From NCBI GenBank assembly GCA_025054935.1, contig JANWZD010000001.1, positions 265,008-329,007 of the forward strand: a stretch of 64,000 nucleotides of DNA, written 5' to 3'. The position numbers were made by a program, and so were the translations under genes. How positions within the stretch are numbered: position 1 is the stretch's first letter; each line of letters begins with the position of its first letter. This document shows, piece after piece, positions 1,717-40,611 of this stretch. Source of the DNA: Dehalococcoidia bacterium. Lineage in GTDB: Bacteria > Chloroflexota > Dehalococcoidia > SpSt-223. Under the pieces are notes generated by a model, which had not been told where the DNA came from, did not search any database, and saw only the letters and a list, made by a program, of their open reading frames with translations.

Positions 1717-3081
1717 TCAGCGGCTGAGAGCTTCGCTTCGCCGGAACTGCTCGATAGCCCGGATGATCGCGGCCCGGTCCGCCGGCACGCGGATCGGCCG
1801 ATTGGCGAACGTTCCCGCGATCGGCTGCGAGCATTGGATGACGCGGGTTTCCGTGACGAACTCCTCGTAGAGTTCGCCGAGGTGATAGCGGACCGTGTAA
1901 TCGGGGTCCTTCAGCACATTTCCCGTCAGGATCGCGACGACATCTTCATCCGGGCTGACGGCGGTGTCTGTGCCCGATTCGACGAGCTGGGCGATCCCGG
2001 CGATCGCAGCTGCCGATGCCGGCTCGCAGCCTATCCCATCGCGGCCGACCATCGCTTTGGCATCCGCAATCGCCTGCTCGCTTACCTCAGTGACCCAGCC
2101 GTTTGTCCAGTCAACGGCACGCATCGCCTTCTTCCAACTGACTGGCCGCCCGATCTTGATTGCGGTCGCGAGCGTTTTGGGATGCACGGTGATAAGGCGC
2201 GTCGGGTCGCCGCTCGTGATCGTCCGATAGAACGGGTCGGCGCCAGAGGCTTGGACAACGGTGACGCGCGGGAGCTTATCGATAAACCCGAGGTCGTACA
2301 GCTCCTTTAGGCCCTTTCCAATCGCGGAGCTGTTGCCAAGGTTGCCGCCCGGCACGACGATCCGGTCGGGAGGGTTCCAGTTGCGTTGGTGCAGGAGCTC
2401 GATTGCGATTGTCTTCTGCCCTTCGAGCCGAAACGGATTGATCGAGTTGAGCACGTAAATGCCGATTTCGTCGGCAACGTCACGCATCAGTTCTTGGGCG
2501 TCGTCAAAATCGCCCTCGACCATCAGCGTCAGGGCGCCGTAATCGAGCGCCTGCGACAGCTTGCCGAACGTGATCTGCCCGTCGGGCACCAGCACAATCC
2601 CGAGCATGCCCGCGCGCGCCGCATAGGCCGCCATCGAGGCGGAGGTATTGCCGGTCGAGGCGCACAGGACAGCCGTCATGCCGAGGATGCGCGCCTCCGT
2701 CACGCCCGTCGCCATGCCGTTGTCTTTGAAAGAGCCGGTCGGGTTGAAGCCGAGGTGCTTTACGGTCAAGCGGTTGAGGCCACAGTAGCGCGCGGTGCGC
2801 GGGGCATCGAGCAGCGGCGTGTTCCCCTCAGGGTAGGTGACGATCTGCGACTCGTCGTCATAAAACGGCAGCAGCTCGCGGTAGCGCCAGACGCCGCTCC
2901 GGTCGATGGGGTTGGGAGAGGCGAGCCGCTCGGTCCAGAGCCGCTTCAGCTTTTCGGGGTCGATCGGCCCAAAGTCGTAGACGACGTCGAGAAGGTCGCC
3001 ACAGTGGTCACAGCGATAGCGCGGCTGGTCTGTTGGGAAGGAGGCAGCGCAGGCGATACAGCGCAACGAGGCGCGATTCAT
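1717..3081 (-). CDS. thrC: Threonine synthase
   Basis: PLP-dependent enzyme converting O-phosphohomoserine to threonine in the cytoplasm. It has 454 residues, of the long form with an N-terminal zinc ribbon (C8, C11, C24, C27) before the fold-type II core. The PLP lysine is K119 in NPTGSFKDNG, and the phosphate-binding ASTGNTSAS loop follows. The C-terminal part retains the GCEPASAA and LTGNVLKDP motifs typical of ThrC. The start is ATG at 3081. A TAGAAT box on the minus strand lies at 3109-3114, about 27 nt upstream, without a recognisable -35. It stands alone: the neighbour downstream is convergent and the one upstream divergent. Confidence 0.95.
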   Translation of the reverse strand: MNRASLRCIACAASFPTDQPRYRCDHCGDLLDVVYDFGPIDPEKLKRLWTERLASPNPIDRSGVWRYRELLPFYDDESQIVTYPEGNTPLLDAPRTARYCGLNRLTVKHLGFNPTGSFKDNGMATGVTEARILGMTAVLCASTGNTSASMAAYAARAGMLGIVLVPDGQITFGKLSQALDYGALTLMVEGDFDDAQELMRDVADEIGIYVLNSINPFRLEGQKTIAIELLHQRNWNPPDRIVVPGGNLGNSSAIGKGLKELYDLGFIDKLPRVTVVQASGADPFYRTITSGDPTRLITVHPKTLATAIKIGRPVSWKKAMRAVDWTNGWVTEVSEQAIADAKAMVGRDGIGCEPASAAAIAGIAQLVESGTDTAVSPDEDVVAILTGNVLKDPDYTVRYHLGELYEEFVTETRVIQCSQPIAGTFANRPIRVPADRAAIIRAIEQFRRSEALSR

Positions 3082-3138: not shown

Positions 3139-3168
3139 TTGATTCCCGCGGAAATGGCTGGCTATACT
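3139..3168 (+). promoter_or_regulatory. Sigma-70-type promoter of the greA-like gene
   Basis: TTGATT at 3139-3144, an 18-nt spacer and TATACT at 3163-3168. The predicted start of transcription lies about 20 nt before the chosen ATG at 3194, with a purine-rich GAGGTGGGG ribosome site between them. Confidence 0.7.
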
Positions 3169-3193: not shown

Positions 3194-4000
3194 ATGAATG
3201 ACTCGAAGTCCGTTGGTGAACTCTCGAGGGAGTATCTCGACTCCCTGCGGCAGAAAAAAGTAAGCACGCAGGATCTTGCGAATGCGCAGCAGGAGGTGCT
3301 GCGGTTCGTGCGGTGGTTCAACTCCGACCAGCTGGTGCGCTCGCTCCGCCCGTCGGATATTGAGCGCTACGTCGAAGAGGTCTCCCGGACCGCCGCCGGC
3401 TCGCCGGGCAAGCTTCAGCCGGTGCGAGATATGCTCGCCTACGCCAAGAAGCACGGCTATACGAGCGAGAACCTCGCAGCGCACGTGCGGGTCCGCCGGC
3501 CGACGACACGCAAGAACGGCAAGAATGAGGTGCGCGAAGTTCAGCGCATCCAGATGACGGCAGAGGGGCTCGAGCAGCTGAAGGCAGACTTGCAAGCGCT
3601 CTACGCCCTGCGCCCCCTCATCGCTGAAGAACTGGCGCGGGCAATGGCGGACAAAGATTTTCGGGAGAATGCGCCGCTCGATGCCGCCCGCGACCGCCAA
3701 GCGCAGGTTGAGGCGCGGATCCGCGAACTGGAGGCGCAGATCCGGATGGCGGAGGTCGTCACCCATACCGATCGGGCGGAGCGCGTCGCTCTCGGCCGAA
3801 CGGTGACACTGATCGACCTTGACGAGCAGGAAGAGGTCCGCTTCGTTCTCGTCTCGCCCAGTGAGGTCGACATCCGCGCTGGGCGCATCTCGACCAACTC
3901 GCCGACGGGCCGCATGCTGCTCGACCGCCGGGTGGGCGACGAAATCTCGGTCGAGGCGCCGGCAGGGCGGGTCCGCTACCGCGTCGTCAAGATCGAGTAG
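3194..4000 (+). CDS. GreA/GreB-type transcript cleavage factor fused to an N-terminal recombinase SAM-like domain
   Basis: The protein has 268 residues, against about 158 for normal GreA. Residues 1-105 look like the core-binding SAM-like helical domain of tyrosine recombinases (SVGELSREYLDSL, then FVRWFNSDQLVRSLRPSDIE); no catalytic recombinase domain follows. Residues 118-190 form the Gre coiled coil, with tip acidic residues D155 and E158 in DFREN, equivalent to the DLSEN tip that coordinates Mg in the RNA polymerase secondary channel. Residues 195-268 are the FKBP-like C-terminal domain (STNSPTGRMLLDRRVGDE). Expected role: rescue of backtracked RNA polymerase. The extra domain could bind DNA or polymerase, which is inference. 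A GTG start at 3179 is possible, but ATG 3194 has the better ribosome site. Confidence 0.88.
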   Translation: MNDSKSVGELSREYLDSLRQKKVSTQDLANAQQEVLRFVRWFNSDQLVRSLRPSDIERYVEEVSRTAAGSPGKLQPVRDMLAYAKKHGYTSENLAAHVRVRRPTTRKNGKNEVREVQRIQMTAEGLEQLKADLQALYALRPLIAEELARAMADKDFRENAPLDAARDRQAQVEARIRELEAQIRMAEVVTHTDRAERVALGRTVTLIDLDEQEEVRFVLVSPSEVDIRAGRISTNSPTGRMLLDRRVGDEISVEAPAGRVRYRVVKIE

Positions 4001-4082: not shown

Positions 4083-5504
4083 CTAGCCTGCGGCGAGATC
4101 AATGGGCCGCAGCTTCCAGAAGTAGTTGTAGTACCCGCCGCCCTCGTGCAGGCGGCGGAAGGTCAGTTCAACGCGCAGCCCAATCCGTGCCAGCGAGGCT
4201 GGGGCGTCGGTCATTTGGCCGTAGAAGCGCCCTCCCCCGTCAAGGTCAGCGACGAGCATCGCAGTCGGCGGGTCAGGCGTGGGGAATAAGTGATCGCGCG
4301 TGAAGGTGTACACCGTTCCGCGGCGCCCAAGCGGAAAATCTTCCATCTGATCCTTCGCGCGGCAGCGGCGGCAGATCCGCTGGCGAGGAAAGCTGATATC
4401 GCCGCAGACGGTGCAGCGGGTGGCAAGGAGCCGCAGGTCTTGTTTCTGCTCTTTCCAGAGCAGCGCGAGCGACGAGTAGGGCTGGAGCGGCTCCTGCTCG
4501 ATGACGTTGCGGAAAGCGAGAAACCGCTCGTAGTTCTCAAGCGGCCGGCGCTGCGCAATCTCCGCAGTCACCCCGCGCCCATGCGTCGCTTGGCCGATCG
4601 CGTCCGTCGCGCGGAAGAGCAGAACATCGCTGTTGCCGCTCCCGTAGGAGACGACGAGAACGCGGTCGCCGGGCTGCAGATCTTCAAGTGCCCACGCAAG
4701 CAGGAGCAGCGGCAACGCCGACCCGACGTCGCCAACCTGGCCGAGGAGCGGGTCGTCTGGAATGCTGCCGGCGGGAAAACCGAGGCCGGCGAGCGCGCTC
4801 GTATAGGCGCGCCGGTCGGGAGCGGCGACGGCCACCCGGGCGATGTCGCTGGGGGCGAGGCCGAAATGCTGCAGCGCTCCCGCGATCGCGTCGCGAACGA
4901 TACGCTGGTAGCCATAGGCGGTCACAAAGGCGGTGTCGCCCCGCTGCGGCATCGGCTCGCGCTCAGTGCGCCAGATGTCGGTGAACTCCTCGCTCAGCGA
5001 ATAGATCCCGTCGAAGGTCGCAAGCGGCGTGCCCTCACCGAGGACAAAGGCGACAGCCCCGTCGCCGGTCGTCTGTTCAAGGTCCGAGCCCGGCTCGCCG
5101 ACGCGCACCTCCGAGGCCGCAACGATCGCCCGCTGCGCGGAACCGGCCCGGATCGCGTCGAAGGCGCTCTTGAGCGCAGCCGTGCCGGCGCGGTGCGAGC
5201 CCGTCACGTCGAGGGTTGAGGCGGTGCGCGGCAGCCCGCAGACCGCCGCGATCAGGGTCGAGCCTTGCTTTTCGTGATACGGCGATGAGTTGCTCGCGAA
5301 GAACACCGCATCCGGGAGCGGGCCGGAGAGTGCCGCCAGCGCCGCCTCAGCCGCGCTCACGGCCATTGTCAGGGCATCCTCGTCGAAGTTGGCAACTGCG
5401 CGCTCTCCCGCTCCAAACGACGATCCCCAGGCCTTGCCGACAATGTTGCGGGCGAGCCGATACCGCGGAATGTGCGCTCCGAACGACAAGATCCCAACAG
5501 CCAC
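4083..5504 (-). CDS. HMG-CoA-synthase-like thiolase-fold protein fused to a DUF35 OB-fold
   Basis: Residues 1-340 match the HMG-CoA synthase/KAS III half of the thiolase superfamily (GILSFGAHIPRYRL, TGDGAVAFVLGEG, SYGSGNSDV). Residues 360-470 are a DUF35 module: a rubredoxin-like zinc ribbon (C364, C367, C378, C381) followed by an OB fold. Such fusions are known among acyl-CoA-binding proteins near thiolases. The nucleophilic Cys expected before the RAGTAAL segment is His104 here, and the HxP motif of HMGS reads AAP at about 228. Condensation by the usual Cys mechanism is therefore doubtful; acyl-CoA binding or a scaffold role is possible. No acetyl-CoA acetyltransferase lies adjacent. Confidence 0.85.
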   Translation of the reverse strand: MAVGILSFGAHIPRYRLARNIVGKAWGSSFGAGERAVANFDEDALTMAVSAAEAALAALSGPLPDAVFFASNSSPYHEKQGSTLIAAVCGLPRTASTLDVTGSHRAGTAALKSAFDAIRAGSAQRAIVAASEVRVGEPGSDLEQTTGDGAVAFVLGEGTPLATFDGIYSLSEEFTDIWRTEREPMPQRGDTAFVTAYGYQRIVRDAIAGALQHFGLAPSDIARVAVAAPDRRAYTSALAGLGFPAGSIPDDPLLGQVGDVGSALPLLLLAWALEDLQPGDRVLVVSYGSGNSDVLLFRATDAIGQATHGRGVTAEIAQRRPLENYERFLAFRNVIEQEPLQPYSSLALLWKEQKQDLRLLATRCTVCGDISFPRQRICRRCRAKDQMEDFPLGRRGTVYTFTRDHLFPTPDPPTAMLVADLDGGGRFYGQMTDAPASLARIGLRVELTFRRLHEGGGYYNYFWKLRPIDLAAG

Positions 5505-29622: not shown

Positions 29623-30669
29623 CTAGCCGGTGCGCGCGTGCGCTCCCTCTTCCATGGCCGAGGGCAAGGGGTGATATTTGCGGTGGGTATATTCAGCAAA
29701 CTGGTCAGAGGCGTGGACGTAGCGGTTGGTGGTGCTCAGCGACTCATGGCCGAGCAGGATTTGGATCGCCGCCGGGTTCGCCCCCTCCTCGGCGAGATAG
29801 GTCGCAAAGCCGTGACGGAGCGAATGCGCCGTGGTCGGCACCGGAATGCCGAGCTTCTCGCGGTATTCCTTGATCTTCGATTGGATGTAGTTTGCCGACA
29901 GCCGCTCCCCCTTTTCCCCGTTGCGCCCGCCGCGGTAGGGAACAAACACCGCCGGCAGGTCGTCGGTGCGCGTCGCGAAATAGGCCCGCAGATGGTGCTG
30001 CGCTCGGGGCGTCAGGTAGACGAAGCGGCGCTTTTTGCCTTTCCCGAGGATGTAAATGCGGCCGCGGTCGTCCACTTGGTGGCGGTCGAGAGCGACCAGT
30101 TCCGAGATCCGCATGCCGGTCGCGAACAGCACCTCGAGCACAGCGCGATTGCGCAGCGCCACCTTTGGGTCGTGCTCGAGCGCAGTCGGCGCCTCGATCA
30201 GCCGCACCAGATCGGGCAGCTCCGCGACTTGCGATTCCCGCTTCTCCGCCTTGACCAGCTTGACTGCATCCGGCGGAACGGGCGGCGTCTCCCCCGCCTC
30301 GATCAGAAACCGCAGGTACGACCGCAGGCTGCTCAGCATCCGATTGATTGAGCGGGCGGAGAGGCGCTTGCCGGCGCTGGGCCGCCTTCCCGCTCCTGCC
30401 GGCTGCCCGCGCCGGGTCGAAGCGAGATACGCCTTGTAGCTCGTCAGTACTTTGCGATCGACAGCGGCAAAAGCGATCGCACGGGCGCGAAGAAAGCGGT
30501 CAAATTCTTCGAGATCGCGGCGATAGTTGTAGATGGTCTCAGGGGAGTAGTTGTTCGCCTCAAGATCATTGAGGAAATCGACGAGCCGCTCGAGCATCTG
30601 GTCTTCGCGCTCCCATCGCAGTTGGAAGGCGCACTGCGCGTACTCTGCAGGTAGGCGGCCTTCCCGCAT
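29623..30669 (-). CDS. Tyrosine recombinase of XerC/XerD type
   Basis: 348 residues from ATG 30669; a start at 30597 (MLERLVDFL) would give the usual Xer length, though neither start has a strong ribosome site. N-terminal SAM-like core-binding domain (NDLEANNYSPETIYNYRRDLEEF), then the catalytic domain with Arg in TGMRISELVAL, Lys in GKGKKRRFVYL, HSLRHGFATYL (His, Arg), LGHESLSTTNRYVH (His) and the nucleophilic Tyr in NRYVH. It resolves chromosome dimers at dif or serves a related element. No second Xer gene is adjacent. A tRNA-Gln lies 160 nt away, but no duplicated tRNA end marks an integrated element. Confidence 0.9.
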   Translation of the reverse strand: MREGRLPAEYAQCAFQLRWEREDQMLERLVDFLNDLEANNYSPETIYNYRRDLEEFDRFLRARAIAFAAVDRKVLTSYKAYLASTRRGQPAGAGRRPSAGKRLSARSINRMLSSLRSYLRFLIEAGETPPVPPDAVKLVKAEKRESQVAELPDLVRLIEAPTALEHDPKVALRNRAVLEVLFATGMRISELVALDRHQVDDRGRIYILGKGKKRRFVYLTPRAQHHLRAYFATRTDDLPAVFVPYRGGRNGEKGERLSANYIQSKIKEYREKLGIPVPTTAHSLRHGFATYLAEEGANPAAIQILLGHESLSTTNRYVHASDQFAEYTHRKYHPLPSAMEEGAHARTG

Positions 30670-35194: not shown

Positions 35195-36226
35195 ATGAGC
35201 TGGGGTCGGCGCTTCGCGCAGTGGCTGGTGGGGGCAGCGCTGGCGACTGGGGTCCTCGTTGCTCCCCTGCCTGTTCATGCTCAAGGGCCAGAACTCGAGC
35301 AAGCGGCGGCGACGGTGCGGCCGGCCGTCGTGCGGATCTCTTACGTCGTTTTCGAGACCGACCCGCTCGGCCGGGTGCGGCGCTCGACATCGGTCGGGTC
35401 CGGCATCATCTTCGACCGGCGAGGCTACATTGCCACCAACGCCCACGTCGTGGAACGCTCGTCCGGCACGGTGACGGTCGACCTGATCGACGGTCGGCGG
35501 CTCGAGGGGGTCGTGATCGGGATGGACCGGTACACGGATGTCGCTGTGGTCCAGGTGAGCGCGCCGGACCTCCCGGTCGCAAAGTGGGGAGACTCGTCCT
35601 CGCTGGTCCCGGGACAGCCGGTCGTTGTCATCGGGCATACGCCGCTTCTCGACCGCCCGTACGAGGGACGGCCGGGGGTGGTGCTCGGCCTTGATGGGTC
35701 AACCATCATGATCAGCGGCTCGGTCCACCGGGAGCTCATCCGCTCGTCGATCGAGCTCTATCCCGGCGACAGCGGCGGGGCGCTGCTCGACGCGGCGGGG
35801 AACGTAGTCGGGATGAACGTGATGCGCCGGCGCGACGACCCGTCGGGAACGTGGAATGAATTTCTCCATATCCCCAGCAATCGCGTTCAAACAATCGCCA
35901 ACTTGCTGGTGCTGCACGGGAAGATCGCGCGCCCGTTCTTGGGCGTGTATGTCTCGACCCTCACCCCCCAAGGCGCAAGCCGGCTCGGCCTTCGCCACTC
36001 GCGCGGCGCGTACATCGAAGCGCTCGTCCCGGCGGGACCGGCCGGCCGGGCAGGCCTTGTCGAAGGGGACACCATCATCGCGATCGAGGGCATGCCTGTG
36101 CGCTCCCGGGAAGACCTTCAGCTCGCTCTCGATCGGCTCCTCCCCGGCCAAACGGTCACCGTCGAGGTGATCCGGAGCAACGGAATGCCTGAGGCGATCC
36201 TCGTGACCGTCGGAGAGCGCCCCTAG
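35195..36226 (+). CDS. HtrA/DegP-like secreted serine protease with one PDZ domain
   Basis: The protein has 343 residues. A signal peptide (LVGAALATGVLVAPLPVHAQ, cleavage near 29) is followed by a trypsin-like domain with H84 (TNAHVV), D115 (YTDVAVV) and S193 (YPGDSGGALL), so the triad is complete. A C-terminal PDZ domain (about 245-340: SRGAYIEALVPAGPAGRAGLVEGDTIIAIEGMPV) binds misfolded C-termini. It acts outside the membrane in protein quality control. It has an AAGAGGG site. The long structured leader and the divergent promoter suggest controlled expression. The symbol is not certain among htrA/degP paralogs. Confidence 0.9.
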   Translation: MSWGRRFAQWLVGAALATGVLVAPLPVHAQGPELEQAAATVRPAVVRISYVVFETDPLGRVRRSTSVGSGIIFDRRGYIATNAHVVERSSGTVTVDLIDGRRLEGVVIGMDRYTDVAVVQVSAPDLPVAKWGDSSSLVPGQPVVVIGHTPLLDRPYEGRPGVVLGLDGSTIMISGSVHRELIRSSIELYPGDSGGALLDAAGNVVGMNVMRRRDDPSGTWNEFLHIPSNRVQTIANLLVLHGKIARPFLGVYVSTLTPQGASRLGLRHSRGAYIEALVPAGPAGRAGLVEGDTIIAIEGMPVRSREDLQLALDRLLPGQTVTVEVIRSNGMPEAILVTVGERP

Positions 36227-36314
36227 CGGCCTTGACAGCCGACAACGAGTACGCCATCGTTATGGCGCGTGCTGGGCGTCGGATGCCAGCGCTCCAACGG
36301 AAAAGGGTTCCACC

Positions 36315-36587
36315 GTGCGCGATCCTGAACTCCTCGTCGGTCATCGCTATATCGTTGGCGGAAGAGAGTTTGCCGTTCTCCGGCTTGAAAACGGTGAGCG
36401 GCGGCTGGCGAAAGTGATCGGCTGGGCCGACCACATCGGCCGGCCGAGCAATCCCGCAGCGGCGCACTACCTCGTTGTCGAGTGCGGACGGAACCCCGAG
36501 ACCTGGCAGACCCTCTTGCTCGAGATCCCGAAGGGGTTCCGGCGCGAGGGCCTGAGGTCGACCGTGCTCATGAAACGGCGCCGCTAA
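36315..36587 (+). CDS. Uncharacterised basic 90-residue protein
   Basis: No family recognised. It reads as a small beta barrel (YIVGGREFAVLRLENGERRLAKVIGW) and ends in a basic tail KRRR. No signal or membrane helix. It starts at GTG 36315 without a clear ribosome site. It stands between the protease and the next small gene on the same strand and could be cotranscribed. Confidence 0.5.
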   Translation: MRDPELLVGHRYIVGGREFAVLRLENGERRLAKVIGWADHIGRPSNPAAAHYLVVECGRNPETWQTLLLEIPKGFRREGLRSTVLMKRRR

Positions 36588-36698
36588 ATTCCCCCAAGCG
36601 GCACCCTCCTTCTAGGCCGAACGGCCTGCCAGAGATTTGCCGCCCCGTGTTATTGTCTATCTGTTGGAGGGCTACTATTGGCCGGGAGGGGGTCAGCC

Positions 36699-37004
36699 AT
36701 GAACGCACGCGTTTCCCTTGACCCGTACGAAGCCCTGTACGAGTGCGTGACGCTCGATGCGGCAACGGCGCGCGCTGCGTCCGTCGCCACGCTGATCGAA
36801 CCGAGGATGGTGACGTATTACGACCTTGCCGCGACGCTGCACGAGCTCGAGGCGGCGCACCGACAAGCGCGGCAGCTAGGGCGAGTCATCGGCCGGTCGC
36901 CGCTTCGTCCGTGGTTGTCGCGCCTTCTTCGCACTCAGCGGGCGCTGGTGAAGCAGCTGCGCGCGGCGATGAAAGAGCGCACTGAGCATCTCGCCCTCCC
37001 CTAG
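36699..37004 (+). CDS. Uncharacterised 101-residue helical protein
   Basis: An all-helical protein with no known family. The first part (DPYEALYECVTLDAATARAA) is acidic and the second basic (RQARQLGRVIGRSPLRPW, RTQRALVKQLRAAMKERTEHL). This charge split hints at coiled-coil packing or nucleic-acid contact. GGGAGGGGGT lies 7 nt before ATG 36699; an earlier TTG in frame at 36678 is less likely. Its 3' end overlaps the convergent MFS gene by 4 nt. Confidence 0.6.
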   Translation: MNARVSLDPYEALYECVTLDAATARAASVATLIEPRMVTYYDLAATLHELEAAHRQARQLGRVIGRSPLRPWLSRLLRTQRALVKQLRAAMKERTEHLALP

Positions 37005-38532: not shown

Positions 38533-39161
38533 GTGGGGACTGTGCTGCCGTTGCGCCGCGTCGCGCCGGTCGCCATCCCAGCAATCGGGGCAGGATCCCT
38601 CGTGCTGGCAGCGCCTGCTCCTTCGGGTGTGCAGCAGGGAAGGTGGCTCAACCAGCCGCCGCTCGCAAACTGGGGTCGACCGGGCATGCCTCTCCCGACG
38701 CCGCAGCCGATCGCTCCCGGCGGCTTGGAGGAAGATCGACCGAACGGCCGGCGCCGTATCTCGCCTTGCTGTGCCACGCAGAGACGGCGGAAGACCGGCA
38801 GTTGACGGCGAACAGCTGGTCGCTCGCGCTGCTCTATCAAGCCGGCTACGGCGTTAAGATCATCCCTGCGCAGACGAGCATTGATGGCATGTGCCGGCCT
38901 GGGAATAGAACTATTTCGTCTTCGGAGTATTTAGCTGGCACGCTTGCCCCACAGCCGATGAACGCCCGTCTCGACCCCTCCGCACCGTCCGTCAACTTCT
39001 TCGGGCTGCACGAGGAGGTCCTCGTTATCTTCCACCGCTACACGCCGCAGGACCCGCTCTGCTGTCCTTCTGCGCAGGCAACCATCCAGTACACTATTCA
39101 GCTCTCGCCGCCGCTTGTCGTTCCGACGGGCATGTTAACGCGGCCGAGCGACCGGAACTGA
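38533..39161 (+). pseudogene. LppP/LprE-like exported protein gene with a frameshift
   Basis: Two frames together give one protein. From GTG 38533 the first frame reads a hydrophobic N-terminus (APVAIPAIGAGSLVLAA) and the linker WLNQPPLANWGRPGMPLPTP, and stops at 38805. From about 38775 the +2 frame carries ETAEDRQLTANSW, DGMCRPGNRT, FHRYTPQDPLCCPS and the end at 39161. These are the motifs of the LppP/LprE lipoprotein-like family (paired Cys in GMCRP and LCCPS). A single-base indel near 38775-38790 would explain it. It may be a true pseudogene or an assembly error. Confidence 0.6.
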
Positions 39162-39163
39162 CG

Positions 39164-39397
39164 ATGACCGACGACGAACTCGACATCCCGCCGCAGGCAG
39201 TCGTGCCCATCCTCGGGGAGGGAGAATATCCGGCCTGGGAACAGCGGCTCGCCCGGCTCAGCCTCGAGCAGCGCGAGGCGCTTCGCGAGTTCGCTGACTT
39301 CCTCCTCCAGTACGCGTCAGGAAGGGTGCCCCGAGCGCGAGGAGCGAGAACGGGGCAGCGGGGAGAGTTCGCTTCCCCGCAGCCGGACGAGCCCTAA
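39164..39397 (+). CDS. Uncharacterised acidic 77-residue protein
   Basis: ATG 39164 lies 2 nt after the stop of the LppP/LprE-like frame, so translation would depend on that reading. The middle is a helical stretch (WEQRLARLSLEQREALREFADFLLQ) and the ends are disordered. No family recognised. Confidence 0.5.
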   Translation: MTDDELDIPPQAVVPILGEGEYPAWEQRLARLSLEQREALREFADFLLQYASGRVPRARGARTGQRGEFASPQPDEP

Positions 39398-39430
39398 GCT
39401 GAACGGCTGTTCCTTGCGGGCGCTGGCTGC

Positions 39431-39436
39431 TAGATT
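39431..39436 (+). promoter_or_regulatory. -10 box for a leaderless start
   Basis: TAGATT ends 8 nt before the ATG of the YibE/F gene at 39445; no ribosome site fits between. A -35-like TGTTCC lies 17 nt upstream. Confidence 0.5.
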
Positions 39437-39444
39437 CCGTCGCG

Positions 39445-40611
39445 ATGCGTCGTCTCCGCCCGCTCCTCTACCTGCTGCTGCTGGCGCCGCTGCTTCTTCT
39501 CTTCGTCGACACGGGGCGCGCCCTCGCCGACCTGCGCCTGCCGCCGGAGGCATTGCCGAATGAGCAGTATGTCCGAGGCGAAGTTCTGGCGGTTGTCGAG
39601 CAGGGGATGCGCGATGTCTTTGGGACGAGCAGCCGCTACCAGCTTCTTCGGGTCGGCCTCCTTGACGGACCGGATCGCGGCCGAGAGGTGCTTGTCGAGT
39701 ATGGCGGGCAGATCAAAATCACGGCGGAGCAGCAGTTTTCGGCTGGACAGACGGCCGTGCTCATTCGGGATCCGAACGGCAGCTACCGGGTCGCCGACCA
39801 CTACCGTCTGCCGGCGCTTCTCGGCGTCGTGGCCGTCTTTATCGCGCTGATCATCTTGAGCGCAGGGCTGAAAGGGATCGGCTCGCTCTTCGGCCTCGCA
39901 GTGTCGTTTACGATCATCGTGCAATTTATCGTCCCGCAGCTGCTCCTCGGCCGCGACCCGCTGCTGATCTCGATCGTCGGCTGTTCGGTGATTCTTGTTG
40001 TCACCACCTACCTTGCGCATGGCATCTCGAAGCAGACGACGGTGGCGGTTGTGTCGACTTGCCTTGCGCTCGCGACGACAGGAGTGCTCGCGATCGTCGC
40101 CGTTCATCTGACCGGGCTGGCGGGCCTTGGCAGCGAAGATGCCGCCATGCTCCAGATCGGGCCGACCTCGGTGATCAACTTGCGCGGTCTCCTGCTGGGC
40201 GGCATCTTGATCGGCACGCTCGGCGCTCTGAACGATGTCACTACGACGCAGGCAGCGACCCTCTTCACGCTCGCGCAGGCGAAGCCGCGAGCGAGCCTTG
40301 CGGAACTGGTGCGCGAAGGCTTTCTCGTCGGACGAGAGCATATCGTCTCGCTGGTCAACACCCTCGTCCTCGCCTACTCTGGGACGGCGCTCGGCGTTGT
40401 CATCTTCTTCGTTCTCAACCCCTCGCACCTCCCCTATTGGGTCTTGTTCAACAGCGAACTTGTCGGCGATGAGGTCGTTCGGACGGTTGCCGGAAGTGTC
40501 GGTGTCATCCTCGCGGTGCCGCTTACCACCGTGCTCGCGGCCTGGGCCGGCCGACGCGAGGCGGCGGCGCGGTCTTCCTCTGCAATGGCCGTGCTCCTTC
40601 ACCGGCACTAA
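39445..40611 (+). CDS. YibE/F family membrane protein
   Basis: The protein has 388 residues. An N-terminal signal anchor, then an extracytoplasmic beta domain (YVRGEVLAVVEQGMRDVFG, REVLVEYGGQI, VLIRDPNGSYRVADHYR, about 40-125), then 7-8 helices of the YibE/F domain (KGIGSLFGLAVSFTIIVQFIVPQLL, GALNDVTTTQAATLF, EHIVSLVNTLVLAYSGTALG). The function is unknown; a transport role has been proposed from context in Gram-positives. The family is common in Firmicutes, Actinobacteria and Chloroflexota. Confidence 0.9.
   Translation: MRRLRPLLYLLLLAPLLLLFVDTGRALADLRLPPEALPNEQYVRGEVLAVVEQGMRDVFGTSSRYQLLRVGLLDGPDRGREVLVEYGGQIKITAEQQFSAGQTAVLIRDPNGSYRVADHYRLPALLGVVAVFIALIILSAGLKGIGSLFGLAVSFTIIVQFIVPQLLLGRDPLLISIVGCSVILVVTTYLAHGISKQTTVAVVSTCLALATTGVLAIVAVHLTGLAGLGSEDAAMLQIGPTSVINLRGLLLGGILIGTLGALNDVTTTQAATLFTLAQAKPRASLAELVREGFLVGREHIVSLVNTLVLAYSGTALGVVIFFVLNPSHLPYWVLFNSELVGDEVVRTVAGSVGVILAVPLTTVLAAWAGRREAAARSSSAMAVLLHRH

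Follow-up and report, generated by a model that had tools for sequence, protein, structure and literature searches.

A predicted tyrosine-recombinase core-binding domain on a Gre-type transcription factor of Dehalococcoidia

Few bacterial transcription factors are as uniform as the Gre factors. In the window, the whole stretch of 64,000 nucleotides analysed here from a Dehalococcoidia bacterium (contig JANWZD010000001.1), one Gre-type gene carries an additional N-terminal domain, which raises the question of where this domain came from, whether the protein could still be a transcript-cleavage factor, and what the domain might do there. The gene, named here the CB-Gre fusion after its core-binding (CB) domain, lies among the following features.

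1717-3081, minus strand: gene of a PALP-family enzyme, probably a threonine synthase, adjoining the fusion gene
3139..3168, plus strand: promoter match of sigma-70-like type (TTGATT-18-TATACT) ahead of the start codon, from a consensus scan
3194..4000, plus strand: coding sequence of the CB-Gre fusion, 268 aa, ATG start at 3194 and TAG stop, with homologues of identical architecture over the full length
4083-5504, minus strand: thiolase-like gene, adjoining the fusion gene on the other side

Both flanking genes were oppositely oriented, leaving the CB-Gre gene unaccompanied on its strand, and one promoter match upstream, with 0.2 expected in the consensus scan, gave a weak hint of a sigma-70-like promoter. 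The product of the gene at 4083-5504 combined a thiolase fold (ACP synthase III or HMG-CoA synthase-like) with a ChsH2-type zinc ribbon and an OB domain. A chance extension or a frame error was ruled out, the entire reading frame being conserved in at least 80 relatives. CB-Gre relatives were not found in the viral contigs searched, giving no sign of viral origin or carriage. Across 138 fusion loci a conserved partner was not found in the gene neighbourhood, the most frequent neighbour clusters occurring in at most 34 loci by a crude clustering which included out-of-frame ORFs. A complete XerC/XerD-type tyrosine recombinase (Phage_int_SAM_1 and Phage_integrase) was present in the window at 29665-30579 on the minus strand. 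In genome G019 (contig C9) the CB-Gre gene (38992-39705) was preceded on its own strand, at a distance of about 2 kb, by an XerD-type gene (35951-36841), an arrangement that was not general among other genomes.

For the origin of the N-terminal part, the evidence came from structure prediction and from profiles of relatives.

3194..3490, plus strand: tyrosine-recombinase CB (SAM-like) domain, residues 1 to about 99, from AF2, Foldseek, VIA-align 2 and profile-profile comparison

With the single sequence, family libraries gave XerC (E 0.0038), XerD (E 0.018) and Phage_int_SAM_4 (E 0.097), all far under cut-off, and the Phage_int_SAM cut-off of Pfam was not reached (13.5 against 27 bits; best family member, E 8e-5). 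The libraries alone were insufficient to identify the domain, and a profile of relatives was required. When the N-terminal domain of 80 relatives was compared with the CB domains of XerC/D from the same class (hhalign), they were matched over 92 columns with E 4.9e-9, while ten column-shuffled profiles gave E of at least 0.035, the Xer catalytic domain 0.15 and the Gre part 0.2. In addition, an HMM built from the CB domain of the fusions picked up Xer N-termini directly. The AF2 model of the full protein had a pLDDT of 91, with residues 105-112 below 50, and that of residues 1-108 alone a pLDDT of 83, with helices predicted at 7-20, 25-42, 53-65 and 71-86 and a short one at 94-97. The best structural match of the model of residues 1-108 was 3nrw (Z 14.8, 1.8 A rmsd over 99 residues), followed by the CB domain of lambda Int (2oxo, Z 12.1) and by XerD (1a0p, Z 10.8). 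All top rows were tyrosine-recombinase or recombinase-fold chains and the first unrelated chain appeared at Z 5.5, a gap which answers the caution due with helical bundles. The preliminary description had read the first 105 residues as resembling such a CB domain and had proposed the structural comparison with XerD; the reading held for residues 1 to about 99. By profile and predicted structure, the N-terminal domain is derived from, or of shared ancestry with, the CB domains of tyrosine recombinases. Like those of XerC/XerD, lambda Int and 3nrw it has the four-helix fold, but it differs from tyrosine recombinases in being joined to a transcription factor, in showing no evident DNA-contact motifs and in having no catalytic domain with the nucleophilic tyrosine, since the remainder is Gre and gave no Phage_integrase match in Pfam.

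The C-terminal domain of GreA and GreB is the part that binds RNA polymerase, and in the fusion the following Gre features were found.

3548..3757, plus strand: Gre coiled-coil domain (GreA_GreB_N), residues 119-188, Pfam PF03449, E 1.2e-18, over cut-off
3650..3676, plus strand: tip DKDFRENAP, residues 153-161, with D155/E158 corresponding to GreA D41/E44
3776..3997, plus strand: Gre C-terminal domain (GreA_GreB), residues 195-268, Pfam PF01272, E 3.2e-22, over cut-off

A complete GreA-type factor thus spans residues 119-268, with the coiled coil, the FKBP-like C-terminal domain and the two acidic tip residues that define GreA/GreB, and D155/E158 were aligned onto D41/E44 of E. coli GreA by profile alignment to 1grj; the preliminary description, which had called the remainder a full Gre factor with these two acids, was right on this point too. 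Foldseek matched the fusion to 1grj, 2p4v and 4wqt, and also to polymerase-bound GreA and Gfh1; against 1grj the TM-score was 0.88-0.89 on the target at 34-35% identity, with the coiled coil and the C-terminal domain complete as in E. coli GreA. Unlike GreA and GreB, the fusion has the extra CB domain, a basic linker and the DKDFRENAP tip with D153, K154 and P161. The curated NCBIfam equivalog cut-offs for GreA were narrowly missed (137.6 against 145 bits, 132.4 against 139 bits), and by this sequence scoring the fusion is a close relative of the curated GreA and not GreA itself. In NCBIfam PRK14720 and PRK06330 the Gre module is likewise C-terminal in a longer protein, but the fusion matches these over the Gre part only and their N-terminal regions differ.

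GreA D41/E44 are required for GreA-stimulated transcript cleavage (PMC7527559). D153, D155, E158, N159 and P161 were invariant in 83/83 fusions of the class, the tip was also invariant in 80/80 named loci, and fusions of other lineages had a D+E tip in 14/14 and 7/7 cases. A second CB-Gre fusion in genome G088 (L314) had a degenerate tip, SGMPLDDAP.

The genome of the window encodes a second, stand-alone Gre factor outside the window (P0002, G000:C8:41565-42038; L001, L318), which shares 37% identity with the Gre part of the fusion and in whose tip, IGGFGDNADL, the positions of D41 and E44 are taken by G and D. Among stand-alone Gre factors both acids were kept in 0/56 from genomes with the fusion, against 26/37 from genomes without it, and in an oppositely biased sample in 0/9 against 17/21. 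The sets share ancestry, and the contrast gives one independent pair on well-supported branches of the tree and seven on all branches. The association of the fusion with tip loss is therefore strong by counts and weak as an evolutionary test, and the loss of the tip acids would be largely one event on the tree. In family f6 of the class, in which the fusion was not detected, the stand-alone Gre had a D..D tip; one of its loci (L089) contained two adjacent stand-alone Gre genes with the tips GDITDSAQY and GDITDDSQY. Because the tip acids of the stand-alone Gre are lost, the fusion is probably the only cleavage-competent Gre in the bacteria bearing it, rather than a supplement to a normal GreA.

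The fusion could instead itself be an inhibitor or modulator and not a cleavage factor. Gfh1 of Thermus and Rv3788 of Mycobacterium are inhibitory Gre paralogues, which contend with GreA for access to the secondary channel, and Gfh1 inhibits while retaining its tip acids (PMC4598747). The fusion tip ADKDFRENAP departs from that of GreA in the extra acid D153, in K154 and in the invariant P161. This is very improbable, since D155/E158 are invariant at exactly the positions which GreA requires, since some fusions of other Chloroflexota carry a canonical tip (GDLSENAGY or GDLRENAAY), and since the fusion was the only Gre match in several genomes of two families, including complete single-contig ones. 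Gfh1 and Rv3788 would more likely be analogues of the stand-alone Gre of the class, although they retain acidic tips, whereas that Gre has mostly lost the cleavage acids and the fusion retains them.

The class Dehalococcoidia includes the organohalide-respiring Dehalococcoides. The fusion was counted in the match table for 86/100 genomes of this class sampled around the genome of the window, and in a second, phylum-wide sample for 39/41 members of the class. The preliminary description had stated that similar fusions exist elsewhere in Chloroflexota and had proposed a search across the phylum, and such fusions were indeed found in about 34/260 genomes of other Chloroflexota classes; the best 80 matches listed in a scan of genome contigs were all from Chloroflexota. 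Its term "lineage-specific" stood as far as the distribution is restricted, but the range is narrower than the phylum, most of the other Chloroflexota genomes having only a stand-alone Gre. In the tree of Gre domains one branch (support 90) parted all fusions from all stand-alone Gre factors, so a single origin of the fusion would be compatible with the data, and the arrangement appears from these comparisons to be old and nearly universal in the class. Two Gre factors of the DKD type were without the CB domain (L312 and L313), and because they were placed apart on the tree, two losses of the domain within the DKD-type clade are suggested. In L313 a Lys-rich tail was present instead of the CB domain (MPKAKKVTKKRPSKKA). 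Since at least two lineages keep a DKD-type Gre without it, the CB domain is not indispensable.

These apparent losses would suit a functionally empty extension, the relic of an old fusion now being lost, and so would the somewhat weaker conservation of the N-terminal part, whose columns averaged 39% identity, compared with 47% over the entire protein. Such a relic is largely refuted and has little probability left: the fold and its key positions were retained over 80 relatives and dozens of families, the fusion is carried by most class genomes as counted above, and in every close pair the dN of the CB domain was well below dS and comparable to that of the Gre part, with the linker usually faster. 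The closest pairs gave dN 0.005 and dS 0.667, and dN 0.028 and dS 0.795, for the CB domain, which is under purifying selection.

What the retained domain does was approached through its charge and its conserved positions, together with the linker behind it.

3491..3547, plus strand: flexible and usually basic linker, residues 100-118, with pLDDT below 50 at 105-112, usually the least conserved part

In 80 relatives the median net charge was 0 for the CB core (residues 1-92) and +5 for region 93-118; as the positive charge sits in the C-terminal segment and the linker, charge gives no clear sign that the core binds DNA. Ten N-terminal positions (37, 40, 46, 73, 78, 85, 86, 99, 101 and 102) were basic in 79-99% of these relatives, among them R78 and R99 in 99% and R102 in 95%. 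Together with the purifying selection, these positions would fit contact with nucleic acid, and with it the tethering of Gre to DNA or polymerase that the preliminary description had put forward as a possibility. In many recombinases SxNT and SxxT motifs begin the DNA-contacting helices, and neither motif was visible on reading the CB profile alignment.

The CB domain could also be a protein-docking module, which would bind either a partner protein or the polymerase surface close to the secondary channel (beta lobe, rim helices), in a factor that still cleaves. The neutral average charge of the core and the apparent loss of recombinase DNA-contact motifs would agree with docking, and the strongest conservation, at aromatic and glycine residues of the core (F38, W41, G43, Y59, F80 and L81), suits the upkeep of the fold for any use; on the other side stand R78, R99 and R102 with seven further conserved basic positions, and the Lys-rich tail that replaces the domain in L313, which suits contact with nucleic acid better. 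Docking is on the whole unlikely, though it keeps a fair share of the probability. Improbable, and more so, is sequence-specific targeting, in which the CB domain would read a DNA motif and bring Gre to certain promoters or pause sites. Most base-specific contacts in XerH do come from the CB domain (PMC5241119), and specific regulators with a CB-type or recombinase fold exist in ALOG (PMC3537659) and MrpR (PMC10516654), but a general polymerase-rescue factor would gain little from a single site, no repeated target is known, and the 138 loci had no conserved gene neighbour.

In Xer recombinases the CB domain grips the major groove of DNA (PMC5241119), and we infer that the domain of the fusion may likewise tether Gre to nucleic acid. 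The reading preferred here, to which about an even chance is given, is that the fusion is the cleavage-competent Gre of its host, with the CB domain as the tether and the stand-alone Gre as a non-cleaving competitor. In this mechanism the Gre C-terminal domain would dock at the secondary channel of the polymerase and the coiled coil would enter the channel, where D155/E158 would support the Mg2+-dependent cleavage of backtracked RNA as in GreA. The CB domain, flexibly tethered, would remain outside the channel and hold nucleic acid, most likely duplex DNA beside the polymerase, with little sequence specificity. Such a tether might raise the local concentration of the factor on transcribing polymerase or stabilise stalled complexes, while the stand-alone Gre, itself non-cleaving, would compete with it for the channel or antagonise it. 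More tentatively, and with rather less than an even chance, it may hold for Dehalococcoidia and related Chloroflexota as a whole that the cleavage duty has moved to a DNA-anchored Gre and that the stand-alone GreA is now a non-cleaving antagonist, giving a two-part control of backtracking. The proposed pair of fusion and antagonist would differ from what model bacteria have, the set GreA/GreB/DksA.

Both domains are known. Open-access papers on Chloroflexi or Dehalococcoides, or on Gre domain architecture, gave no published description of the fusion, nor of such a combination as what looks like the principal cleavage factor of a class, together with a tip-less paralogue. The tyrosine-recombinase DNA-binding domain or fold has been adopted in transcription control by the ALOG regulators of plants and by the MrpR repressor of SPbeta (PMC3537659, PMC10516654), which are DNA-binding regulators, whereas CB-Gre puts the domain on a core elongation factor. 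If the preferred reading is true, this would add to the cases in which transcription has recruited a recombinase domain, with the basal machinery as the recipient, and the antagonist role of the tip-less stand-alone paralogue would become a clearly testable question. It would also mean that the rescue of polymerase can be coupled, across a whole class, to DNA contact beyond the secondary channel.
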